Of a stretch of DNA of 35,485 nucleotides, positions 1 through 17,042 are shown one piece after another. The stretch is from positions 1 to 35,485 of the forward strand of contig JAPLTU010000068.1 of the NCBI GenBank assembly GCA_026397965.1, in the 5' to 3' direction. Position numbers and translations under genes: made by a program. Source of the stretch: Verrucomicrobiota bacterium (GTDB lineage Bacteria > Verrucomicrobiota > Verrucomicrobiia > Opitutales > UBA953). The notes under the pieces are model-generated. The model made no database searches and was not told where the DNA came from. It saw only the letters and a list, made by a program, of their open reading frames with translations. Positions within the stretch are counted from its first letter, which is position 1; each line of letters begins with the position of its first letter.

Positions 1-26
1 CATCGCATCCGCTGCCTCTCAGTTAG

Positions 27-47
27 GGACAGCACCACGTGCTGTCC
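27..47. repeat. Short perfect hairpin, 9-bp stem
   Basis: A 9-bp perfect stem (27-35 with 39-47) closes on a CAC loop and is followed by a pyrimidine-rich run (48-57). It resembles the GTAG-footed hairpins further on but is preceded by GTTAGG instead of GTAG. It could be a terminator of a gene to the left of the window or a decayed REP-like unit. Confidence 0.5.
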
Positions 48-57
48 TTTTCCTTTT

Positions 58-4415: not shown

Positions 4416-4464
4416 CCCGAAGGTTAGTTCAAAGGGAGACCGGATAGGATGCTGGGGTTCATAG

Positions 4465-4490
4465 GTAGGGGCGCCACTGCGTGGCGTCCG
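4465..4490 (+). repeat. REP-like hairpin with GTAG foot
   Basis: GTAG at 4465-4468, 6-bp stem CGCCAC / GTGGCG with TGC loop, ending in TCCG. Forms an inverted pair with 4554-4578. Confidence 0.65.
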
Positions 4491-4553
4491 TGGGCGGACG
4501 GATATCGGAAGGTCCAAGAATGCTACCCGGCTTACTTGTCATACGCTGCGAAC

Positions 4554-4578
4554 GGACGCGACGCAGTCGCGCCCCTAC
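4554..4578 (-). repeat. REP-like hairpin, inverted partner
   Basis: On the minus strand GTAGGGG then a 6-bp stem CGCGAC / GTCGCG with a TGC loop, ending in GTCC. Nearly the same sequence returns at 16052-16076. Together with 4465-4490 it makes a BIME-like pair with a 63-base spacer in which I see no gene. Confidence 0.65.
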
Positions 4579-4601
4579 CACGATGCAGTGCTGCGTTTTC
4601 T

Positions 4602-4690
4602 GAGCCTCCGAGCCTCTGGTCAACTGAGCCTCTTGGATTCCCCCTTGTCCCCGTGTCACCGTGCCCACGTGCCCCCTGGCGCTACGCGCC
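4602..4690 (+). repeat. Octamer array D (9 units) plus hairpin
   Basis: Nine in-phase octamers (4602-4673): GAGCCTCC, GAGCCTCT, GGTCAACT, GAGCCTCT, TGGATTCC, CCCTTGTC, CCCGTGTC, ACCGTGCC, CACGTGCC. Then CCCT (4674-4677) and a 5-bp hairpin with TAC loop (4678-4690), which ends one base before the stop codon of the M42 gene. Confidence 0.8.
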
Positions 4691-4691
4691 C

Positions 4692-5771
4692 TTACCACGC
4701 GTAAGACTGCTTCTTCTTCACGCGACAGGCGAATTCAACGAGGAGTTGGACGGTTTGCTCGACGACAGCGAGGTCGACGACTTCGCCCGGGGTATGCATG
4801 TAGCGGAGAGGGATGGAGAGCAGGCCGCAGGCGACGCCGCCGTTAGCCATCTGGATGGCGCGGGCATCGGTACCGGTGGGCCGAGATTCGGCACCGATCT
4901 GATAAGGGATGCCAAGCGATTCGGCCGCTTCGACGAGGTGATCAAAGACGACGGGGTTGATGTTCGGGCCACGGGCGATGATGGGACCGCCAGAAAGGGT
5001 GAAGCGGCCGAACTTGCGGTTGTCCGCGTCCGGATGATCAGTCGCATGGCCGACGTCGACGGCGATGGAGACATCTGGATTGATAGCTTGGGCGGCAACT
5101 TGCGCGCCGCGTGTACCGATTTCTTCCTGCGTCGTGGCGACGGAAACCACCCGCGCCGCGAGATTCTTTTCTTTCGAGAGACGACGAAAAGCTTCCATGC
5201 AGGCGTAAGCGCCAGCCTTGTCGTCGAACGCGCGGGCCACGCCGATGCTGCCGCGCAAGATTTCTGGGCCGTCGGTATAGATTGCCGGATCACCGATACG
5301 AACAATCGCAAGGGCTTCGGTGCGGTTGGTCACGCCGATGTCGATCCACATGTCGTGGCGCTCAGGCACGCGCTTGCGGTCCTCGGGCGAGAGCAGGTGG
5401 ACGGCACGCTTGCCGGTGATGCCGAGCACGGGGCCATTGCGGGTAAGGATGTGGAGGCGACGGCCGGAGGGGATGATCTGGTCGTGGCCGCCGAGAAATT
5501 CGAAGTACAAGAAGCCCTTGTCATCGACGTGCGAGATGATCAGACCGATTTCGTCGATGTGTCCGGCGAACATTAGCGTCGGTCCGCCGTTGCCCTTGAG
5601 TTCGGCGATACGATTACCGAGCGCGTCTTTGGAATATTTATCCGCAGATTTTTCAACGTAGCTATCGACGACTTTCTGGGCGGCGAACTCGTGACCCGTC
5701 GGGGACTTCGCCTCGAGCAGTTCTTTTAGGAAATCAGGAAATTGGGTGTGCTTGGCGGACTTTTTGGACAT
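4692..5771 (-). CDS. M42 family aminopeptidase
   Basis: The 359-residue product is full length for the M42 family (glutamyl aminopeptidase, deblocking aminopeptidase and 'endoglucanase' FrvX types), which form cytoplasmic dodecameric di-metal exopeptidases that trim peptides. Visible active-site residues are His71 and Asp73 in AGHIDEIG, the bridging Asp183/184 in RAFDDKAGA, the catalytic pair Glu216-Glu217 in TQEEIGTRGA, Asp239 in AVDVGHATDHP, and His326 in YMHTPGEV. No signal peptide is present. The start at ATG 5771 gives the usual N-terminus; an octamer array and hairpin lie 54 bases upstream. No operon partner is close. Exact substrate preference cannot be told from sequence. Confidence 0.9.
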   Translation of the reverse strand: MSKKSAKHTQFPDFLKELLEAKSPTGHEFAAQKVVDSYVEKSADKYSKDALGNRIAELKGNGGPTLMFAGHIDEIGLIISHVDDKGFLYFEFLGGHDQIIPSGRRLHILTRNGPVLGITGKRAVHLLSPEDRKRVPERHDMWIDIGVTNRTEALAIVRIGDPAIYTDGPEILRGSIGVARAFDDKAGAYACMEAFRRLSKEKNLAARVVSVATTQEEIGTRGAQVAAQAINPDVSIAVDVGHATDHPDADNRKFGRFTLSGGPIIARGPNINPVVFDHLVEAAESLGIPYQIGAESRPTGTDARAIQMANGGVACGLLSIPLRYMHTPGEVVDLAVVEQTVQLLVEFACRVKKKQSYAW

Positions 5772-5805: not shown

Positions 5806-5860
5806 GCGAAGGCAAAGCCTTCGCAGGGGGCACGGTGACAAGTGGACATGTGGGCACGGG
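5806..5860 (-). repeat. Octamer array E (4 units) plus hairpin
   Basis: Minus-strand order: CCCGTGCC (5853-5860), CACATGTC (5845-5852), CACTTGTC (5837-5844), ACCGTGCC (5829-5836), CCCT (5825-5828), then a perfect 8-bp stem with AAA loop (5806-5824). It points toward the start of the M42 gene. Confidence 0.75.
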
Positions 5861-5909
5861 GAAGGGCTCAAGGGGAGATCGGAAACCGGAATGTTAGTTT
5901 GGGCATCGG

Positions 5910-5934
5910 GTAGGGCGGGCTCTCCGAGCCCGCC
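5910..5934 (+). repeat. REP-like hairpin with GTAG foot
   Basis: GTAG at 5910-5913; 9-bp perfect stem 5914-5922 with 5926-5934, loop TCC. Pairs in inverted orientation with 5972-5996. Confidence 0.7.
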
Positions 5935-5971
5935 GTTGAACTGGATGAGGTTCGAATCACCCGCGGCGACC

Positions 5972-5996
5972 GGACGGCTCGGAGAGCTGTCCCTAC
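5972..5996 (-). repeat. REP-like hairpin, inverted partner
   Basis: Stem 5972-5980 with 5984-5992 (one G-T pair), loop GGA; GTAG on the minus strand at 5993-5996. The homologous unit at 16203-16227 has a perfect stem, so the base change here keeps the pairing by wobble. Confidence 0.7.
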
Positions 5997-6010
5997 CCAT
6001 TTGCATCCCT

Positions 6011-6086
6011 GGCCAACTGGCCAACTGGTCAACCGGTCAACTTGGTTTACCCCTTGTCCCCGTGTCACCTTGCCCACGTGCCCCCT
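6011..6086 (+). repeat. Octamer array F (9 units)
   Basis: Nine in-phase octamers (6011-6082): GGCCAACT twice, GGTCAACC, GGTCAACT, TGGTTTAC, CCCTTGTC, CCCGTGTC, ACCTTGCC, CACGTGCC, then CCCT (6083-6086). The array ends three bases before the stop codon of the rhodanese gene. No hairpin follows. Confidence 0.8.
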
Positions 6087-6089
6087 ACC

Positions 6090-6611
6090 TCACTTATTCC
6101 ACGGCGCCTTGGCGATCAGCAGCCCCATGCCGCACCAATCCGTGACGCCAGCGAAGATTAGTCCAGCGCCCACGAAGCCGCTCAGGCCGTAGAAGCCCGG
6201 GTGGGCAAAGGTGCCGAGTATGACACCGGTAAAGACCATCGAGCCCGCCGCAATGCGGACTTGGCGTTCGATGGAGATGACGCCTTTCGAAGATTTATCC
6301 AGAGCCACGCCGGCCTTCACGCAAGCGGCGGTACCACCCGAAACCACGAGGAGATGCAGGCCTTTCCCGGAGATTCGTTCCGCCGCGATCGTGGCACGTT
6401 TGCCAGCCGCGCAGAGGAGTACGACGTGTCGGGCGGCATCACCGCCTCGGAGTTCGGCGACTTTGGCGACAGTCACGAGTTCCAGCGGAAGATGGATGGC
6501 TGTGCGCACATGGCCTCCGCGAAATTCGGCGGCGGAACGCACGTCCAGAGGGAGAGAACCTCGCGTGCGTTCGGCTTCGATCTCGGTCGGGGCGATGGTT
6601 TCGATGGTCAT
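6090..6611 (-). CDS. Rhodanese with DUF2892 membrane tail (YgaP-like)
   Basis: The 173-residue product has an N-terminal rhodanese domain (residues about 1-100) with the persulfide-forming Cys67 in the loop CAAGKR. A C-terminal DUF2892-type region (about 112-170) holds two hydrophobic segments. This matches the layout of E. coli YgaP, an inner-membrane sulfurtransferase that handles sulfane sulfur. The start at ATG 6611 is chosen because it overlaps the leuA stop as ATGA (6608-6611); the reading frame is open further upstream but lies inside leuA. Coupled translation with leuA is therefore likely, though no metabolic link between them is obvious. Confidence 0.85.
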   Translation of the reverse strand: MTIETIAPTEIEAERTRGSLPLDVRSAAEFRGGHVRTAIHLPLELVTVAKVAELRGGDAARHVVLLCAAGKRATIAAERISGKGLHLLVVSGGTAACVKAGVALDKSSKGVISIERQVRIAAGSMVFTGVILGTFAHPGFYGLSGFVGAGLIFAGVTDWCGMGLLIAKAPWNK

Positions 6612-8272
6612 CGTTCGAGGCGGTTGGCCGCGCTGACGAGGGCCTTGAGGCCGGCGAGTTCGATATTCGCATCCACGCCGCAACCCCAGGCGGTGCGGCC
6701 ATCCTTGGACTGCAGTGACACATAGGCGGCGGCGGAAGATTCCGAGCCAGCGGTCAAAGCATGCGAACGGTAATCCTTGAGAGAGAAGTTTGCCCAACCC
6801 TTGGAGTCGAGGGCGTGCACGAGCGCGCTAATCGGGCCGTTGCCTTCACCGGTGAGGGTGAAGGTCTTGCCGGCGTGACGGACCTCGGCCTCACAGCGCA
6901 CGGTCTGCTTATTGACGGGCGTCGAGCTGAACGCGACGAGCTCGAGCGGGCTGGAGATATTGACGAAATCCAGGCGGAAGCGCTCATGGATTTCCGCCGG
7001 CGAGAGTTCTTTGCTGTGCTTATCGGCGTACTTGCCGATGAGGTTGCCGACTTCCGGGTGCATCAGCTTCGGGAGATCGAAACCGAATTCACGGTCGAGC
7101 ACGTAGGCGACGCCGCCCTTGCCGCTCTGCGAGTTGATGCGGATGATGGCCTCGTACGAACGTCCAATATCCATCGGGTCGATGGTGAGGTAGGGGACGT
7201 CCCAGAGGGCGCCATGGCCGATTTTGCCACGGCGATCCATGCCCTTCTTGATGGCGTCTTGGTGGGGGCCCGAGAAGGCCGTGAAGACGAGGTCGCCGCC
7301 ATACGGGTGGCGGTCATGCACGCTCATACGGGTCACGCGCTCGAAGACTTCGCGGATCGCGCCGAGGTTGCGGAAGTCCAAATGCGGATCGATGCCGTGC
7401 GAGAAAAGATTGAGCGCAACGGTGACGATATCCACGTTGCCCGTGCGCTCGCCGTTACCGAAAAGCGTGCCTTCGACGCGGTCCGCGCCCGCCATCAGGC
7501 CGAGTTCAGTCGCGGCGACGCCGGTGCCGCGGTCGTTGTGTGTGTGCAATGAGACGATGGCCAACGCGCGGTTGCTGAGATGGCGGCAGAACCACTCAAT
7601 CTGGTCGGCGTGCGTATTGGGCGTGCCGGCTTCGACGGTCAGTGGTAGGTTCAGGATGATCTTCTTTTGGGCCGAAGCACCCCAGGCCGCGGCCACAGCT
7701 TCGCAGACTTCGAGGGCGTAATCGGGCTCGGTGAGCACGAACGTCTCGGGGCTGAATTCCAATTGCCAATGCGTCTCGGGCTGCGCTTCGGTGAGTTCGC
7801 GGATGAGCTTGGTCCCGTTCACCGCCATCTCGAGCACTTGGGCTTTGGACAGGCCGAAGACAATGTCGCGCTGGGCGGGGTTGGTCGGCGTGTAGAGATG
7901 GACAATCGCGCGGTGGGCGCCTTTGAGTGATTCGAGCGTGCGCCGGATTAGATGTTCGCGCGCCTGGACGAGCACTTGGACGGAGACGTCCTCAGGAATC
8001 AGTTTCTTTTCGATTAATTCCCGGGTGAAAGCGAACTCGGTATCGGAAGCGGAAGGAAAGCCAATTTCGATTTCTTTGAAACCGATCCGGCAAAGCATCT
8101 GGAACATCTCGTGCTTCTCGGGCACGTTCATCGGGATCGCCAAGGCTTGGTTACCGTCGCGGAGGTCGACGGAGCACCAGCGCGGAGCTTGCTCGAGACG
8201 GGCGTCAGGCCAGCGCCGATCGGGGAGCTTGACGGTCTCGAAGGGGCGATATTTCTGCCGAGGGTTTTCCAT
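6608..8272 (-). CDS. leuA: 2-isopropylmalate synthase, LeuA2 type
   Basis: The 554-residue product condenses acetyl-CoA with 2-oxoisovalerate, the first committed step of leucine synthesis. The N-terminal TIM barrel carries the HMGL-like signature SVDLRDGNQAL (34-44), in which Asp36/Arg38 belong to the metal and substrate site. Further on are the metal ligands in SLHTHNDRG and the FGNGERTGNVD loop. The C-terminal part (last 120 residues) is the leucine-sensing allosteric domain, so feedback inhibition is expected. Length and motifs fit the long alpha-type (LeuA2) enzymes. ATG 8272 gives the usual MENPRQKYRPF-type start; the upstream extension crosses a terminator and is rejected. It overlaps the rhodanese gene by four bases. 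Confidence 0.93.
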   Translation of the reverse strand: MENPRQKYRPFETVKLPDRRWPDARLEQAPRWCSVDLRDGNQALAIPMNVPEKHEMFQMLCRIGFKEIEIGFPSASDTEFAFTRELIEKKLIPEDVSVQVLVQAREHLIRRTLESLKGAHRAIVHLYTPTNPAQRDIVFGLSKAQVLEMAVNGTKLIRELTEAQPETHWQLEFSPETFVLTEPDYALEVCEAVAAAWGASAQKKIILNLPLTVEAGTPNTHADQIEWFCRHLSNRALAIVSLHTHNDRGTGVAATELGLMAGADRVEGTLFGNGERTGNVDIVTVALNLFSHGIDPHLDFRNLGAIREVFERVTRMSVHDRHPYGGDLVFTAFSGPHQDAIKKGMDRRGKIGHGALWDVPYLTIDPMDIGRSYEAIIRINSQSGKGGVAYVLDREFGFDLPKLMHPEVGNLIGKYADKHSKELSPAEIHERFRLDFVNISSPLELVAFSSTPVNKQTVRCEAEVRHAGKTFTLTGEGNGPISALVHALDSKGWANFSLKDYRSHALTAGSESSAAAYVSLQSKDGRTAWGCGVDANIELAGLKALVSAANRLER

Positions 8273-15188: not shown

Positions 15189-15794
15189 ATGATCGTCTCC
15201 CTCCGCGGCAAACTCATCGAAGCCGGCGTCCTGCGCGTCGTCATCGAGTCGTCGGGCGTGGGCTACGAGGTCAATGTGCCCGTCACCACCGCCGAGCGCC
15301 TGCCGAAGCTCGGTGCGGAAGTCTTTCTGCTCATTCACCACGTCTTTCGCGAAGATGGTCAGGCACTCTACGGCTTTGCCGTCGCCGAGGAACGCGAGTT
15401 CTTCAAACTACTCGTCGAGAAAGTTTCCGGAGTCGGCCCTAAGATGGCGCTTAATATTTTAAGCCGGATGGCTTTGCCCATTCTGCGTGATGCGATCCTG
15501 CGCGGCGACGTCGCCTTACTTTCCCAGTGCCCGGGCATCGGCAAGAAGACCGCTGAGCGCCTCGTTATGGAGCTTAAAGATAAGGTCGGCCTGGAAGGTC
15601 CGGGCGCAACGGTCGTCTCGACTTTGCCGGCGGCTTCGGCAGCTGCGCCGACCCCGGCCTCCGATGCCATGGCCGCGCTCATCGCGCTTGGATTCAAGCC
15701 GGCCGATGCCGATAAGGGCGTGCGGACCGCGCTGACGAAACTCGGTGCCGGTGCCAGTGCCGATCAGCTCGTGAAGGCTGCGCTCGGGCGCTGA
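15189..15794 (+). CDS. ruvA: Holliday junction branch migration protein RuvA
   Basis: The 201-residue product is full length. Domain I (OB fold) covers residues 1-63; domain II contains the two helix-hairpin-helix motifs VSGVGPKMALNIL (about 79-91) and CPGIGKKTAERLV (about 114-126). Domain III (about 155-201, AMAALIALGFKPADADKGV) is the RuvB-binding module, joined by an Ala/Pro-rich linker. RuvA holds Holliday junctions open for the RuvB motor during recombination. ruvB and ruvC are not in the window. The gene follows the methyltransferase by 30 bases. A 6-bp hairpin (15786-15791 with 15796-15801) spans its stop codon. Confidence 0.93.
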   Translation: MIVSLRGKLIEAGVLRVVIESSGVGYEVNVPVTTAERLPKLGAEVFLLIHHVFREDGQALYGFAVAEEREFFKLLVEKVSGVGPKMALNILSRMALPILRDAILRGDVALLSQCPGIGKKTAERLVMELKDKVGLEGPGATVVSTLPAASAAAPTPASDAMAALIALGFKPADADKGVRTALTKLGAGASADQLVKAALGR

Positions 15795-15810
15795 GGCGCC
15801 CTCGCGAGGG

Positions 15811-15882
15811 GACACGCTGGCAAGGGGACACGTGGGCATGGGGGAGGCTAAGTTGACCTGTTGATCGGTTGGCCGGTTGGCC
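15811..15882 (-). repeat. Octamer array G (9 units)
   Basis: Minus-strand order from 15882: GGCCAACC twice, GATCAACA, GGTCAACT, TAGCCTCC, CCCATGCC, CACGTGTC, CCCTTGCC, AGCGTGTC, then CCCT (15807-15810). All nine units are in phase. The array points to the 3' end of ruvA. Confidence 0.8.
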
Positions 15883-15899
15883 AGAAGAAAGACAACACG

Positions 15900-15931
15900 A
15901 CTTGACCCGTTGACCAGTGGGCCAGTTGGCC
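15900..15931 (-). repeat. Four extra GGCCAACT-type octamers
   Basis: Minus strand: GGCCAACT, GGCCCACT, GGTCAACG, GGTCAAGT. They lie 17 bases (two octamers plus one) upstream of array G, so the phase is lost between the two blocks. Confidence 0.65.
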
Positions 15932-15953
15932 AGGGAGACAAGGAATGTAATGG

Positions 15954-15980
15954 GTAGGGGCGTGATCACCATCACGTCCG
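15954..15980 (+). repeat. REP-like hairpin with GTAG foot
   Basis: GTAG at 15954-15957; 6-bp stem CGTGAT / ATCACG with a CACC loop, then TCCG. Inverted partner at 16052-16076. Confidence 0.6.
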
Positions 15981-16051
15981 TTCGCGACCGCAGATGGGGG
16001 CCTCATTCGCCCTTGGCTAAGACCCGATGACTTCTGGCTTCGGTCTCAAAC

Positions 16052-16076
16052 GGACGCGACGCAGTCGCGCCCCTGC
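16052..16076 (-). repeat. REP-like hairpin, inverted partner
   Basis: Same stem as 4554-4578, but the foot reads GCAG instead of GTAG on the minus strand, a likely decayed foot. Confidence 0.6.
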
Positions 16077-16100
16077 CCGATGCAACCGGTACATAATATA

Positions 16101-16281
16101 TTGGGAGACCGGGAACCGGAAAGTTAGCTGGGGAATTGGGTAGGGCGGGCTCTCCTAGCCCGCCGCTGAACTGGATATGATCCGTATGACCTTCAGGCGA
16201 ACGGACGGCTCGGAGAGCCGTCCCTACCCATTTGCATCCCTGGCCAACTGGCCAACTGGCCAACTGATCAACCGGTCAACT
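16101..16281. repeat. Long dispersed intergenic repeat, copy 2
   Basis: Homologous to 5872-6042, including both hairpins (16140-16164 and 16203-16227) and the GGCCAACT octamers. The second hairpin stem is perfect here. The 16077-16100 stretch before it shows nothing notable. Confidence 0.7.
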
Positions 16282-16298: not shown

Positions 16299-17042
16299 TT
16301 ACTTCAGTCCCAACACATCTTCCATGCCATACAGACCGGCAGGCTGGCTCGCAAGCCATCGGGCCGCGCGCACAGCGCCTCGCGCGAAGATCTCGCGATT
16401 GGAAGCCTTGTGCGTGAGTTCAAGGCGTTCGCCTTCGGCCGCAAAGAGTACGGTGTGGTCGCCCACGACGTCGCCGCCGCGAATGGCATGAACGCCGATC
16501 TCGTTGAGCGGGCGTTCGCCGACGAGTCCGTCGCGGCCATGCTTCAGGGTCTCGGTCGCAAGCTTACGTTCTTCGAGCAGAATCTTGAGGAGTGTCTCGG
16601 CGGTGCCGGAAGGAGCGTCCTTCTTTAGACGGTGGTGCATCTCGAGGACTTCGATATCCCAGCGTCCGGCATCGGCGAGCGACCGGGCCGCCTGGCGGAC
16701 CAGCGCGTTCAGCAGCGTGACGCCCACGGAGTAATTGCCGGCCCAGACGACCGGGAGTCCTTTGATAGCGGCTTGGATCGCGGCTTTTTCTTCGGCGGTG
16801 TGGCCGGTAGTGCCGATGACGAGCGGCTTCTTGTGTTGAGCGCAGAGCTGAGCGACGCCGAGCGTGACGGCGTGAAAAGAGAAATCGATGACGACGTCGA
16901 CGGCGCCAATGTGCGCAGCGAGGTTGTCGCCTTGGTCAACGGCCGCCGCGATGGCGCCCTGTTCGGACGGGGCGACGGAGAGGATGGCCTGGCCCATGCG
17001 ACCCTTGGCACCATTAAGAAGAATGCGGATAGGTTGGCTCAT
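16299..17042 (-). CDS. dapB: 4-hydroxy-tetrahydrodipicolinate reductase
   Basis: The 247-residue product reduces the DapA product on the way to diaminopimelate and lysine, using NAD(P)H. The nucleotide-binding motif NGAKGRMGQ (10-18) and the catalytic segment EMHHRLKKDAPSGTA (134-148), with His136/His137 and Lys140/141, are intact. The start codon overlaps the dapA stop as ATGA (17039-17042), so the two enzymes are probably made in a coupled manner. Array H and REP-like units lie directly downstream. Confidence 0.93.
   Translation of the reverse strand: MSQPIRILLNGAKGRMGQAILSVAPSEQGAIAAAVDQGDNLAAHIGAVDVVIDFSFHAVTLGVAQLCAQHKKPLVIGTTGHTAEEKAAIQAAIKGLPVVWAGNYSVGVTLLNALVRQAARSLADAGRWDIEVLEMHHRLKKDAPSGTAETLLKILLEERKLATETLKHGRDGLVGERPLNEIGVHAIRGGDVVGDHTVLFAAEGERLELTHKASNREIFARGAVRAARWLASQPAGLYGMEDVLGLK

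Follow-up and report, generated by a model that had tools for sequence, protein, structure and literature searches.

Two intergenic regions of one bacterial contig carry the same repeat, made of a leader, an inverted pair of hairpins and an array of octamers. Do these parts travel as one composite unit, as an initial annotation had proposed, or are they separate elements that come and go independently at the same spots? We analyzed both copies in the window, by which we mean the whole stretch of 35,485 nucleotides (contig 44 of a draft genome of 2.18 Mb), together with the source genome, related genomes and other genomes of the phylum.

Results

Anatomy of the two copies

Copy 1 (5873-6041) is flanked by two minus-strand genes, by the start of one for an M42-type peptidase (4692-5771) and by the end of one for a rhodanese-like protein (6090-6797). 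Copy 2 (16103-16281) separates ruvA (15189-15794) from dapB (16299-17042), which are convergent; the genes were assigned with Pfam. In a genome search, 16103-16272 aligned to bases 14-182 of the copy-1 query with 86% identity (E = 2.7e-52), and the annotated sharing of a repeat of about 170 bases was thereby confirmed. The common order of parts also held, as leader, hairpin, centre, inverted hairpin, linker and octamers were seen in each copy. Identity was 83% between 5873-5961 and 16103-16191 and 94% between 5965-6041 and 16196-16272.

Copy 1 begins with a leader module on the plus strand (5873-5907, GGAGAYCGGRAACCGGA), consisting of two 7-base words and a tail, which is also repeated elsewhere without hairpins in matches spanning roughly query bases 3-47. 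It is followed by a REP hairpin (5909-5936, plus strand) with the stem GGCGGGCTC/GAGCCCGCC and the head GTAG at 5910, a plus-strand centre of 37 bases (5935-5971) whose sequence has diverged and whose length is constant, and the inverted partner hairpin (5970-5997, minus strand) with the stem GGACAGCTC. The linker CATTTGCATCCC (5998-6009, plus strand), as read from the sequence, includes TGCATC, the reverse complement of one form of the motif GA[TG][AG]CA. An array of octamer A then follows on the minus strand (6010-6041), with four units reading AGTTGACC GGTTGACC AGTTGGCC AGTTGGCC, one base shifted. Arrays of octamer B (AGGGGGCACGGTGACAAGTGGACATGTGGGCACGGGG) are present at 5824-5861 on the plus strand and, inverted, at 6048-6085 on the minus strand. 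These two inverted arrays bracket the copy-1 mosaic, and the same bracket was observed at the orthologous site of two relatives (L143 and L211).

The region of copy 2 is longer. From the left, it holds an octamer B array (15803-15843), two octamer A arrays (15851-15884 and 15900-15933) and a neighbouring REPIN of another class (15953-16077), all on the plus strand; this REPIN has a GCGTGAT left hairpin (15953-15981), a GCGCGAC right hairpin (16050-16077) and a centre that looks chimeric. Copy 2 itself comprises the leader module (16103-16137, plus strand), a REP hairpin with the stem GGCGGGCTC and one stem-loop base changed (16139-16166, plus strand), a centre of 38 bases (16165-16202, plus strand), a hairpin with the stem GGACGGCTC (16201-16228, minus strand) and an octamer A array of about five units (16241-16281, minus strand), which has one unit fewer in the closest relative. 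A third REPIN in the window, of class GCGCCAC/GCGCGAC, is located at 4464-4579 on the plus strand. The four hairpins of the two copies, in order of position, gave E-values of 3.7e-8, 1.8e-7, 5.4e-6 and 3.5e-9 with a covariance model, values that are partly so by construction because the model was trained on hairpins of the source genome, including one from the copy site itself. Five further REP hairpins are found in the first 3 kb of the window (22-49, 57-84, 146-173, 1217-1244 and 2856-2883), three of which are copies of one hairpin, identical over 28 bases.

GTAG hairpins and their pairing

The hairpins were characterized in 30 sequences that were chosen for holding matches and together make up 442,107 bases, or one fifth of the genome, with a stem defined as 9 bp of which at least 8 are paired. 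Of all 256 tetranucleotides, GTAG ranked first as the head of such hairpins (187 of 1755 occurrences; median of the tetranucleotides 2), followed by GGTA (65 of 2485, the same heads shifted), CCGC (45 of 8389) and GAAC (33 of 3377). In 20 genome stretches and the window, a hairpin followed GGTAGGG in 76 of 198 cases, compared with 0-3 hairpins for eight control words occurring 68-339 times. The 187 GTAG hairpins had 44 different arms and loops of 3 (140 hairpins), 4 (46) or 5 bases (1), and they fall within the definition of the GTAG REP superfamily, namely a stem of 5-13 bp with GTAG at its foot and a loop of 2-20 bp. An alignment of 29 different loop-3 stems, from which one further stem was dropped as a likely chance match and 15 loop-4 stems were left out, had 96.9% of cells paired compared with 65.3% after shuffling, and 78 double changes compared with 21.3. 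These results indicate that the stems vary by compensatory change beneath a constant GTAG head.

The covariance model detected at least 172 hairpins genome-wide at E up to 0.1, a lower bound for which 150 of 1313 first-pass candidates were scored, and more may exist. With strict filters and E up to 0.001, hairpins were detected in 39 of 145 genomes of the phylum (source included), representing 27 of 81 genera. Matches to the copy-1 repeat at E up to 0.001 were present in 22 of 25 genomes of the genus, the source again included.

REP clusters in the 442 kb were mixed in orientation and inverted pairs were common: among neighbouring REPs within 120 bases, 59 were head-to-head, 11 tail-to-tail and 41 in tandem. 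The spacing of the pairs was class-specific. GCGCCAC pairs with GCGCGAC at 59-66 bases (15 pairs), CTGACCA or CTGACCG with TTGAGCG at 2 bases (13 pairs), and ACGGCTC or its variants, the class of the window copies, with CGGGCTC or TGGGCTC, mostly 37-38 bases apart. The hairpin pair of each copy is therefore a REPIN: two palindromes, each beside the conserved tetranucleotide GTAG and with a 9-bp stem, inverted around a spacer of 37-38 bases.

The centre was annotated as diverged between the two copies, and this proved to be a property of the class. In 16 distinct REPINs from the source genome, relatives and two named records, the arms and loops were 93-100% identical and the centre 63.5%, with a centre length of 37 in 14 of the 16; the search pattern constrained parts of the arms, but neither the loops nor the 3' arm in hairpin 1, and in hairpin 2 it left most of the 3' arm free. 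As single-stranded DNA, both REPINs folded far above shuffled sequences (z = -5.3 and -5.1; 0 of 200 shuffles as good). A spacer that is less conserved than the REPs and keeps its length, within a pair that folds, is what has been reported for Pseudomonas REPINs (PMC3116915; Bertels and Rainey 2011). A diverged centre of fixed length is thus ordinary, being part of the published REPIN signature. The initial annotation had attributed the pattern to selection or gene conversion acting on the hairpins; their conservation relative to the centre was borne out, and gene conversion is not needed for it, since REPINs are described with this same pattern (PMC3116915).

Octamer and heptamer arrays

Self-matches at a lag of 8 bases occurred in intergenic DNA at 12.0 per 1000 windows, compared with 0.85 in a Markov-1 model and 1.44 in coding DNA, and a lag of 7 also stood out (4.89 compared with 1.13); genes were called in this analysis by a crude longest-frame rule. 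We grouped the words ourselves into octamer families A (AGTTGACC, AGTTGGCC, AGTGGGCC), B (AGGGGACA, AGGTGACA), C (AGAGGCTC) and D (AGGTGCAA), and 7-base words (GGGTGAC, GGAGACC, GGGTCTC, GCCGATG and GCGGTTA). The octamer A element, about four units followed by AGGGATGCAA, was found 56 times in the 442 kb (54 without overlaps); the reversed consensus gave 9, a control spoiled by the period, because the reversed pattern fits octamer variants. In the window, a two-octamer word with up to 3 mismatches occurred 9 times compared with 0.31 expected. The two arrays tested did not fold beyond shuffled sequences (z = -0.2 and -0.9), and the possibility that octamers are themselves hairpins mobilised by RAYTs thus found no support.

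The exact two-unit A pattern occurred 29 times in the source genome. Its backwards counterpart occurred 7 times, an unclean control for the reason given above, and the contrast between genomes was used instead. The pattern was present in 36 of 55 genomes of the genus and once each in 2 of 144 other genomes of the phylum, a set that includes one congener without the pattern. Octamer A is therefore nearly restricted to the genus, whereas the hairpins are spread over the phylum. Searches of the open-licence literature, aimed at such arrays or at verrucomicrobial REP-like repeats, gave no description of octamer or heptamer arrays.

Association and separability of hairpins and octamers

With the looser definition of the A element and overlaps merged, a REP-like head followed 21 of 54 elements, 15 of them at one spacing and with eight different arms, while 8.9% of random intergenic 40-mers hold such a head. 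Under the strict rule, a REP head followed 13 of 53 arrays, at 21 bases in ten and at 14 or 22 bases in three, with six arms or five classes, compared with 3.8% of random intergenic points; several of these cases are near-copies of one another, such as three CTGACCA cases with common flanks, so that the counts under either rule are not independent. On the opposite side of the arrays, no REP head was found under either rule (n = 54 and n = 53). Octamer A and REPs are thus truly associated, on one side only and across different REPINs, and some octamer elements may have moved together with REPs.

Joint movement is a poor description of the arrays as a whole. No REP adjoined 33 of 54 arrays under the looser rule and 40 of 53 under the strict rule, and the same array-REP junction carries five to seven different stem classes. 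A genome search with the copy-1 repeat gave 81 matches when E-values up to 1 were accepted. The repeat is dispersed as annotated, and the idea of only two copies is false; full-length copies are the exception, since two matches span everything from leader to octamers, a third consists of leader and hairpins, and the rest are shorter.

A linker motif at the joints between modules

The motif GA[TG][AG]CA, which was picked from these data, had a density of 14.5 per kb in the gaps between modules of the source genome, compared with 1.8 in all intergenic and 0.62 in coding DNA, and was present on either strand in 37 of 80 gaps, defined as up to 40 bases between modules and including short REPIN centres. 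In relatives, whose gaps were not used to pick the motif and share some junctions by descent, it was found at 10.6 per kb in gaps, 0.86 in intergenic and 0.58 in coding DNA, and in 21 of 72 gaps. There it ranked first among 360 letter permutations, the second of which, [AG]A[TG]GCA, overlaps it. Upstream of REP heads, a weak consensus TGC[AC][AT][CT] followed by G[AG] was seen at 42 of 209 heads. The linker is frequent at module joints and not universal.

Exchange of modules at orthologous sites

Orthologous intergenic sites with up to 1200 bases between the genes were compared among relatives. At the site of copy 1 (site 1), one or more REPs were present in 12 of 14 readable loci, and their stem classes formed 10 different sets. 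The remaining two (L208 and L210) are short (99 and 89 bases) and without REPs; they are diverged, and an insertion with a clean empty site was not caught at any locus. REPs were present in 16 of 22 loci at the site of copy 2 (site 2), or 15 of 21 without L250, where the genes are in another orientation, and in 8 of 20 loci at a third site.

Octamer A occurs at site 1 in 4 of 14 loci. Three different REPs directly adjoin it in L191, L196 and L197, and none is adjacent in L199. One and the same REPIN is accompanied by the octamer array in L197 and stands without it in L211, and in L143, L211 and L214 three different REPs are joined to nearly the same right flank. An extra module is present at site 1 in L193, L199, L212 and L214, in which direct octamer D words flank a GGAGC/GCTCC hairpin and 7-base GGTGGCG words follow.

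The named draft record L143 is 81-90% identical to the window in DNA. REPINs of neighbouring sites are permuted within 8 kb of this record, the window REPINs at 4439-4677 and 5869-5997 having their best L143 match at other junctions. Leader plus REPIN also occur on another contig of the source genome (L003) and at another gene junction of L143. At 2196-2848 of L143, two minus-strand frames lie between two REPINs; judged from translation alone, they read like a toxin-antitoxin pair, a putative AbrB-like protein of 81 aa followed by a PIN-like protein of 155 aa, and the window has neither at that intergenic site. L143 and L065 are labelled Akkermansia muciniphila HRS-HS9-bin-183 and share 75-90% DNA identity with the source genome over kilobases. 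This label looks doubtful, and other similar records are labelled Opitutae or Opitutia.

The closest pair of genomes, the source and G041, have 98.1% DNA identity in dapB. Between ruvA and dapB, the left block with its B and A arrays is identical at 192 of 195 positions. In the first REPIN (15953-16077) the centre matches at 44 of 64 and the right hairpin at 24 of 30 positions, with paired changes, and leader plus second REPIN (copy 2) match at 95 of 179; where the source has copy 2, G041 carries a single GCAGCAC REP and a leader in inverted orientation. Further right, through the A array and the flank, 53 of 54 aligned bases agree, and the G041 array is shorter by exactly one octamer. The conserved flanks and array on either side of swapped REPINs show that at site 2 the array stayed, changing by one unit, while the hairpins were replaced. 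The proposal that hairpins and octamers travel as one unit is contradicted by these sites, where octamers stay while hairpins change and a single REPIN is found both with and without octamers.

The right 47 bases of the REPIN at 15953-16077 are 100% identical to the site-2 REPIN of G015 (L235), and its left half resembles another class (L214, 85% over 75 bases). Its chimeric appearance points to recombination between REPINs in addition to transposition, and recombinational exchange does also seem to occur.

RAYT transposases and stem classes

Two genes of the source genome matched PF01797, and 32 places matched in 20 of 41 genomes of the genus. Among the 30 of these loci that were read, 14 had short frames (138-192 aa) and 16 long frames (246-333 aa). 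REP hairpins flanked 13 of the 14 short RAYTs on both sides within 300 bases, compared with none of the 16 long ones within 900 bases, two of which had a REP on one side. The long RAYT-like genes may be of the TIR-flanked type described in PMC3733652. The long gene of the source genome, a Y1 transposase gene with a frame of 325 aa at approximately 1075-1356 of L031 (source contig C64), has GGGTCAGACCGC palindromes on its flanks and no REP hairpins.

Stem class tracked RAYT clade. In a tree of 18 sequences (12 of the 14 short RAYTs, L255 and L265 being left out, and 6 from named loci), six stem classes required a minimum of 5 changes, compared with a mean of 11.4 after shuffling and 0 of 200 shuffles as low; one class is a single sequence and five are testable, bootstrap values fall below 90 for two of these five (83/86 and 87/74), and a warning was given that long branches come together in the tree. 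GGCTC-class stems, the class of the window copies, flank RAYTs in three records outside the genus sample (L067, L126 and L162); these records were fetched for holding such a hairpin, and some of the hairpins beside their RAYTs fall within the stop-to-stop frame. In the genus, none of the 30 RAYT loci that were read carried this stem class, and the short RAYT of the source genome (L032) is a remnant. The machinery for the class of the window copies may therefore be gone here.

Discussion

A probable mosaic of independent modules

Each copy is most probably a REPIN inside a mosaic of separate short intergenic modules, including leader words and octamer arrays A and B. RAYTs most likely made the REPIN families, recognising GTAG together with their own stem; a role of GTAG in recognition and in the choice of the cleavage site, with the palindrome also mattering, has been reported (PMC8266576). 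The hairpins would be kept because they serve as recognition ends for these transposases, and the centre would have to keep its length only. We infer that RAYTs also moved the REPINs of the window. The octamer A array would be a separate dispersed element of about four 8-base units and a short tail, often found beside REPINs because both probably attach through the same GA[TG][AG]CA-like linker. Between species, the modules of one intergenic spot appear to be exchanged fast, and hairpins and octamers independently of each other. The exchange probably uses both RAYT insertion beside the common linker and recombination between like modules, the latter then reshuffling the REPIN families. Target choice may be identical for all REPIN classes, as GTAG is their common guide, and such a common guide and target would explain how different REPINs reuse one spot.

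The strongest alternative, although we consider it less probable, gives the main part to homologous recombination or gene conversion between like modules at different sites or lineages, with RAYTs having made the families long ago and being inactive on the class of the window copies now. The chimeric look of the REPIN at 15953-16077, flanks that are nearly identical up to the REPIN, and genus loci that hold no cognate GGCTC-class RAYT among those read are consistent with it. However, the genus does contain RAYT genes of other classes that lie between matching REPs, and stem classes follow the RAYT clades; a mixture of both processes fits equally well.

In a further, rather unlikely reading, selection maintains the octamer arrays where they are, as binding sites or as functional RNA elements, and REPINs land beside them by a preference for the linker. 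The strong intergenic period of 8 and the site-2 array that outlasted its neighbouring REPIN would suit such sites, as would the tendency of the A element to four units in one order of variants, a tendency biased by a search consensus in that order. Against this, the arrays are present at some orthologous sites and absent at others, one unit was gained or lost between the closest genomes, no fold was detected in the two arrays tested, and Rfam gave no match in the window at the gathering score. Octamers could nevertheless have a function of their own.

More speculative still is the idea that the spacers of this genus are docking sites for interchangeable cassettes, in which the GA[TG][AG]CA joint takes REPINs of all RAYT classes, octamer tetrads and leaders, inserted and replaced via the common GTAG guide and target. 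A single composite mobile unit, in which leader, hairpins and octamers move jointly, is improbable: it would account for the two copies with all parts in common order and for the one-sided adjacency of REP heads to A elements, but arrays frequently lack a REP, their junction accepts many stem classes, L197 and L211 differ in the array and not in the REPIN, the source genome and G041 have the array and not the REPIN in common, and the complete set of parts is rare among the genome matches. We therefore rejected it as a general rule, given the arrays without REPs and the exchange at orthologous sites. Simple duplication of an intergenic region or gene block without mobility, suggested by two copies of 86% identity on one contig, was rejected as very improbable because of the copy number, the mostly partial matches, their presence in most genomes of the genus and the further leader plus REPIN in L003 and L143.

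Relation to known repeat systems

The bacterial interspersed mosaic element (BIME) of E. coli consists of intergenic REPs in alternating orientation and at regular spacing plus other short motifs. The window elements resemble it as an intergenic mosaic of REPs in which inverted pairs are common, in clusters of mixed orientation; unlike in BIMEs, the accessory motifs are tandem words of 8 and 7 bases, and the mosaic differs between close species. The layout of short intergenic repeat modules also recalls the Neisserial intergenic mosaic element (NIME; PMC9778887); here, inverted B arrays often enclose the modules. The window elements differ from NIMEs in having no dRS3 flanks beyond chance: the pattern ATTCCC(N)8GGGAAT had 4 matches with 2 mismatches in the window, compared with 1.89 expected, and none at the element. 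Membership in NIME was rejected for this reason.

The likeness to the REPINs of PMC3116915 extends to two inverted REPs, conserved ends, a spacer of kept length, folding of the whole pair and the association with RAYTs. In contrast to the REPINs portrayed in the available text of that source, many classes lie here side by side in one genome, embedded in octamer modules, and most pairs combine two different stems with class-specific spacing. With the GTAG REP families and REPtrons of PMC3733652 (Di Nocera 2013) the window elements have in common the GTAG head, the 9-bp stem, head-to-head dimers and RAYTs flanked by the same REPs. The same source reports Opitutus terrae as highly enriched in GTAG REPs and a few REP families as regularly associated with other DNA tracts; octamer arrays and module exchange at orthologous sites are not described in its available text. 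The hairpin part is thus already known, in a phylum already reported with such REPs (PMC3733652). The mosaic that includes octamer tetrads, its linker and the exchange of modules at fixed junctions are new; we found no description of them in the open-licence literature searched. Overall, REPINs and nearly genus-restricted octamer modules form a mosaic of BIME- or NIME-like type, with fast module exchange.

Meaning for the genus

The mobility of REPs and REPINs has so far largely been inferred. This genus, with 55 searchable genomes, offers different REPINs and modules at the same junction, even though the flanking DNA can be 98% identical, so that comparisons can test REPIN target choice, turnover rate and RAYT specificity. 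Its many stem classes, which match RAYT clades below an unchanging GTAG head, lend themselves to studying stem recognition by RAYTs. Arrays of octamer and heptamer words appear to form one more class of intergenic repeat. If the spacers of the genus were indeed docking sites, they would represent an integron-like exchange of intergenic cassettes driven by a REP transposase family, an exchange that would give almost every species a regulatory spacer of its own at a given gene pair.
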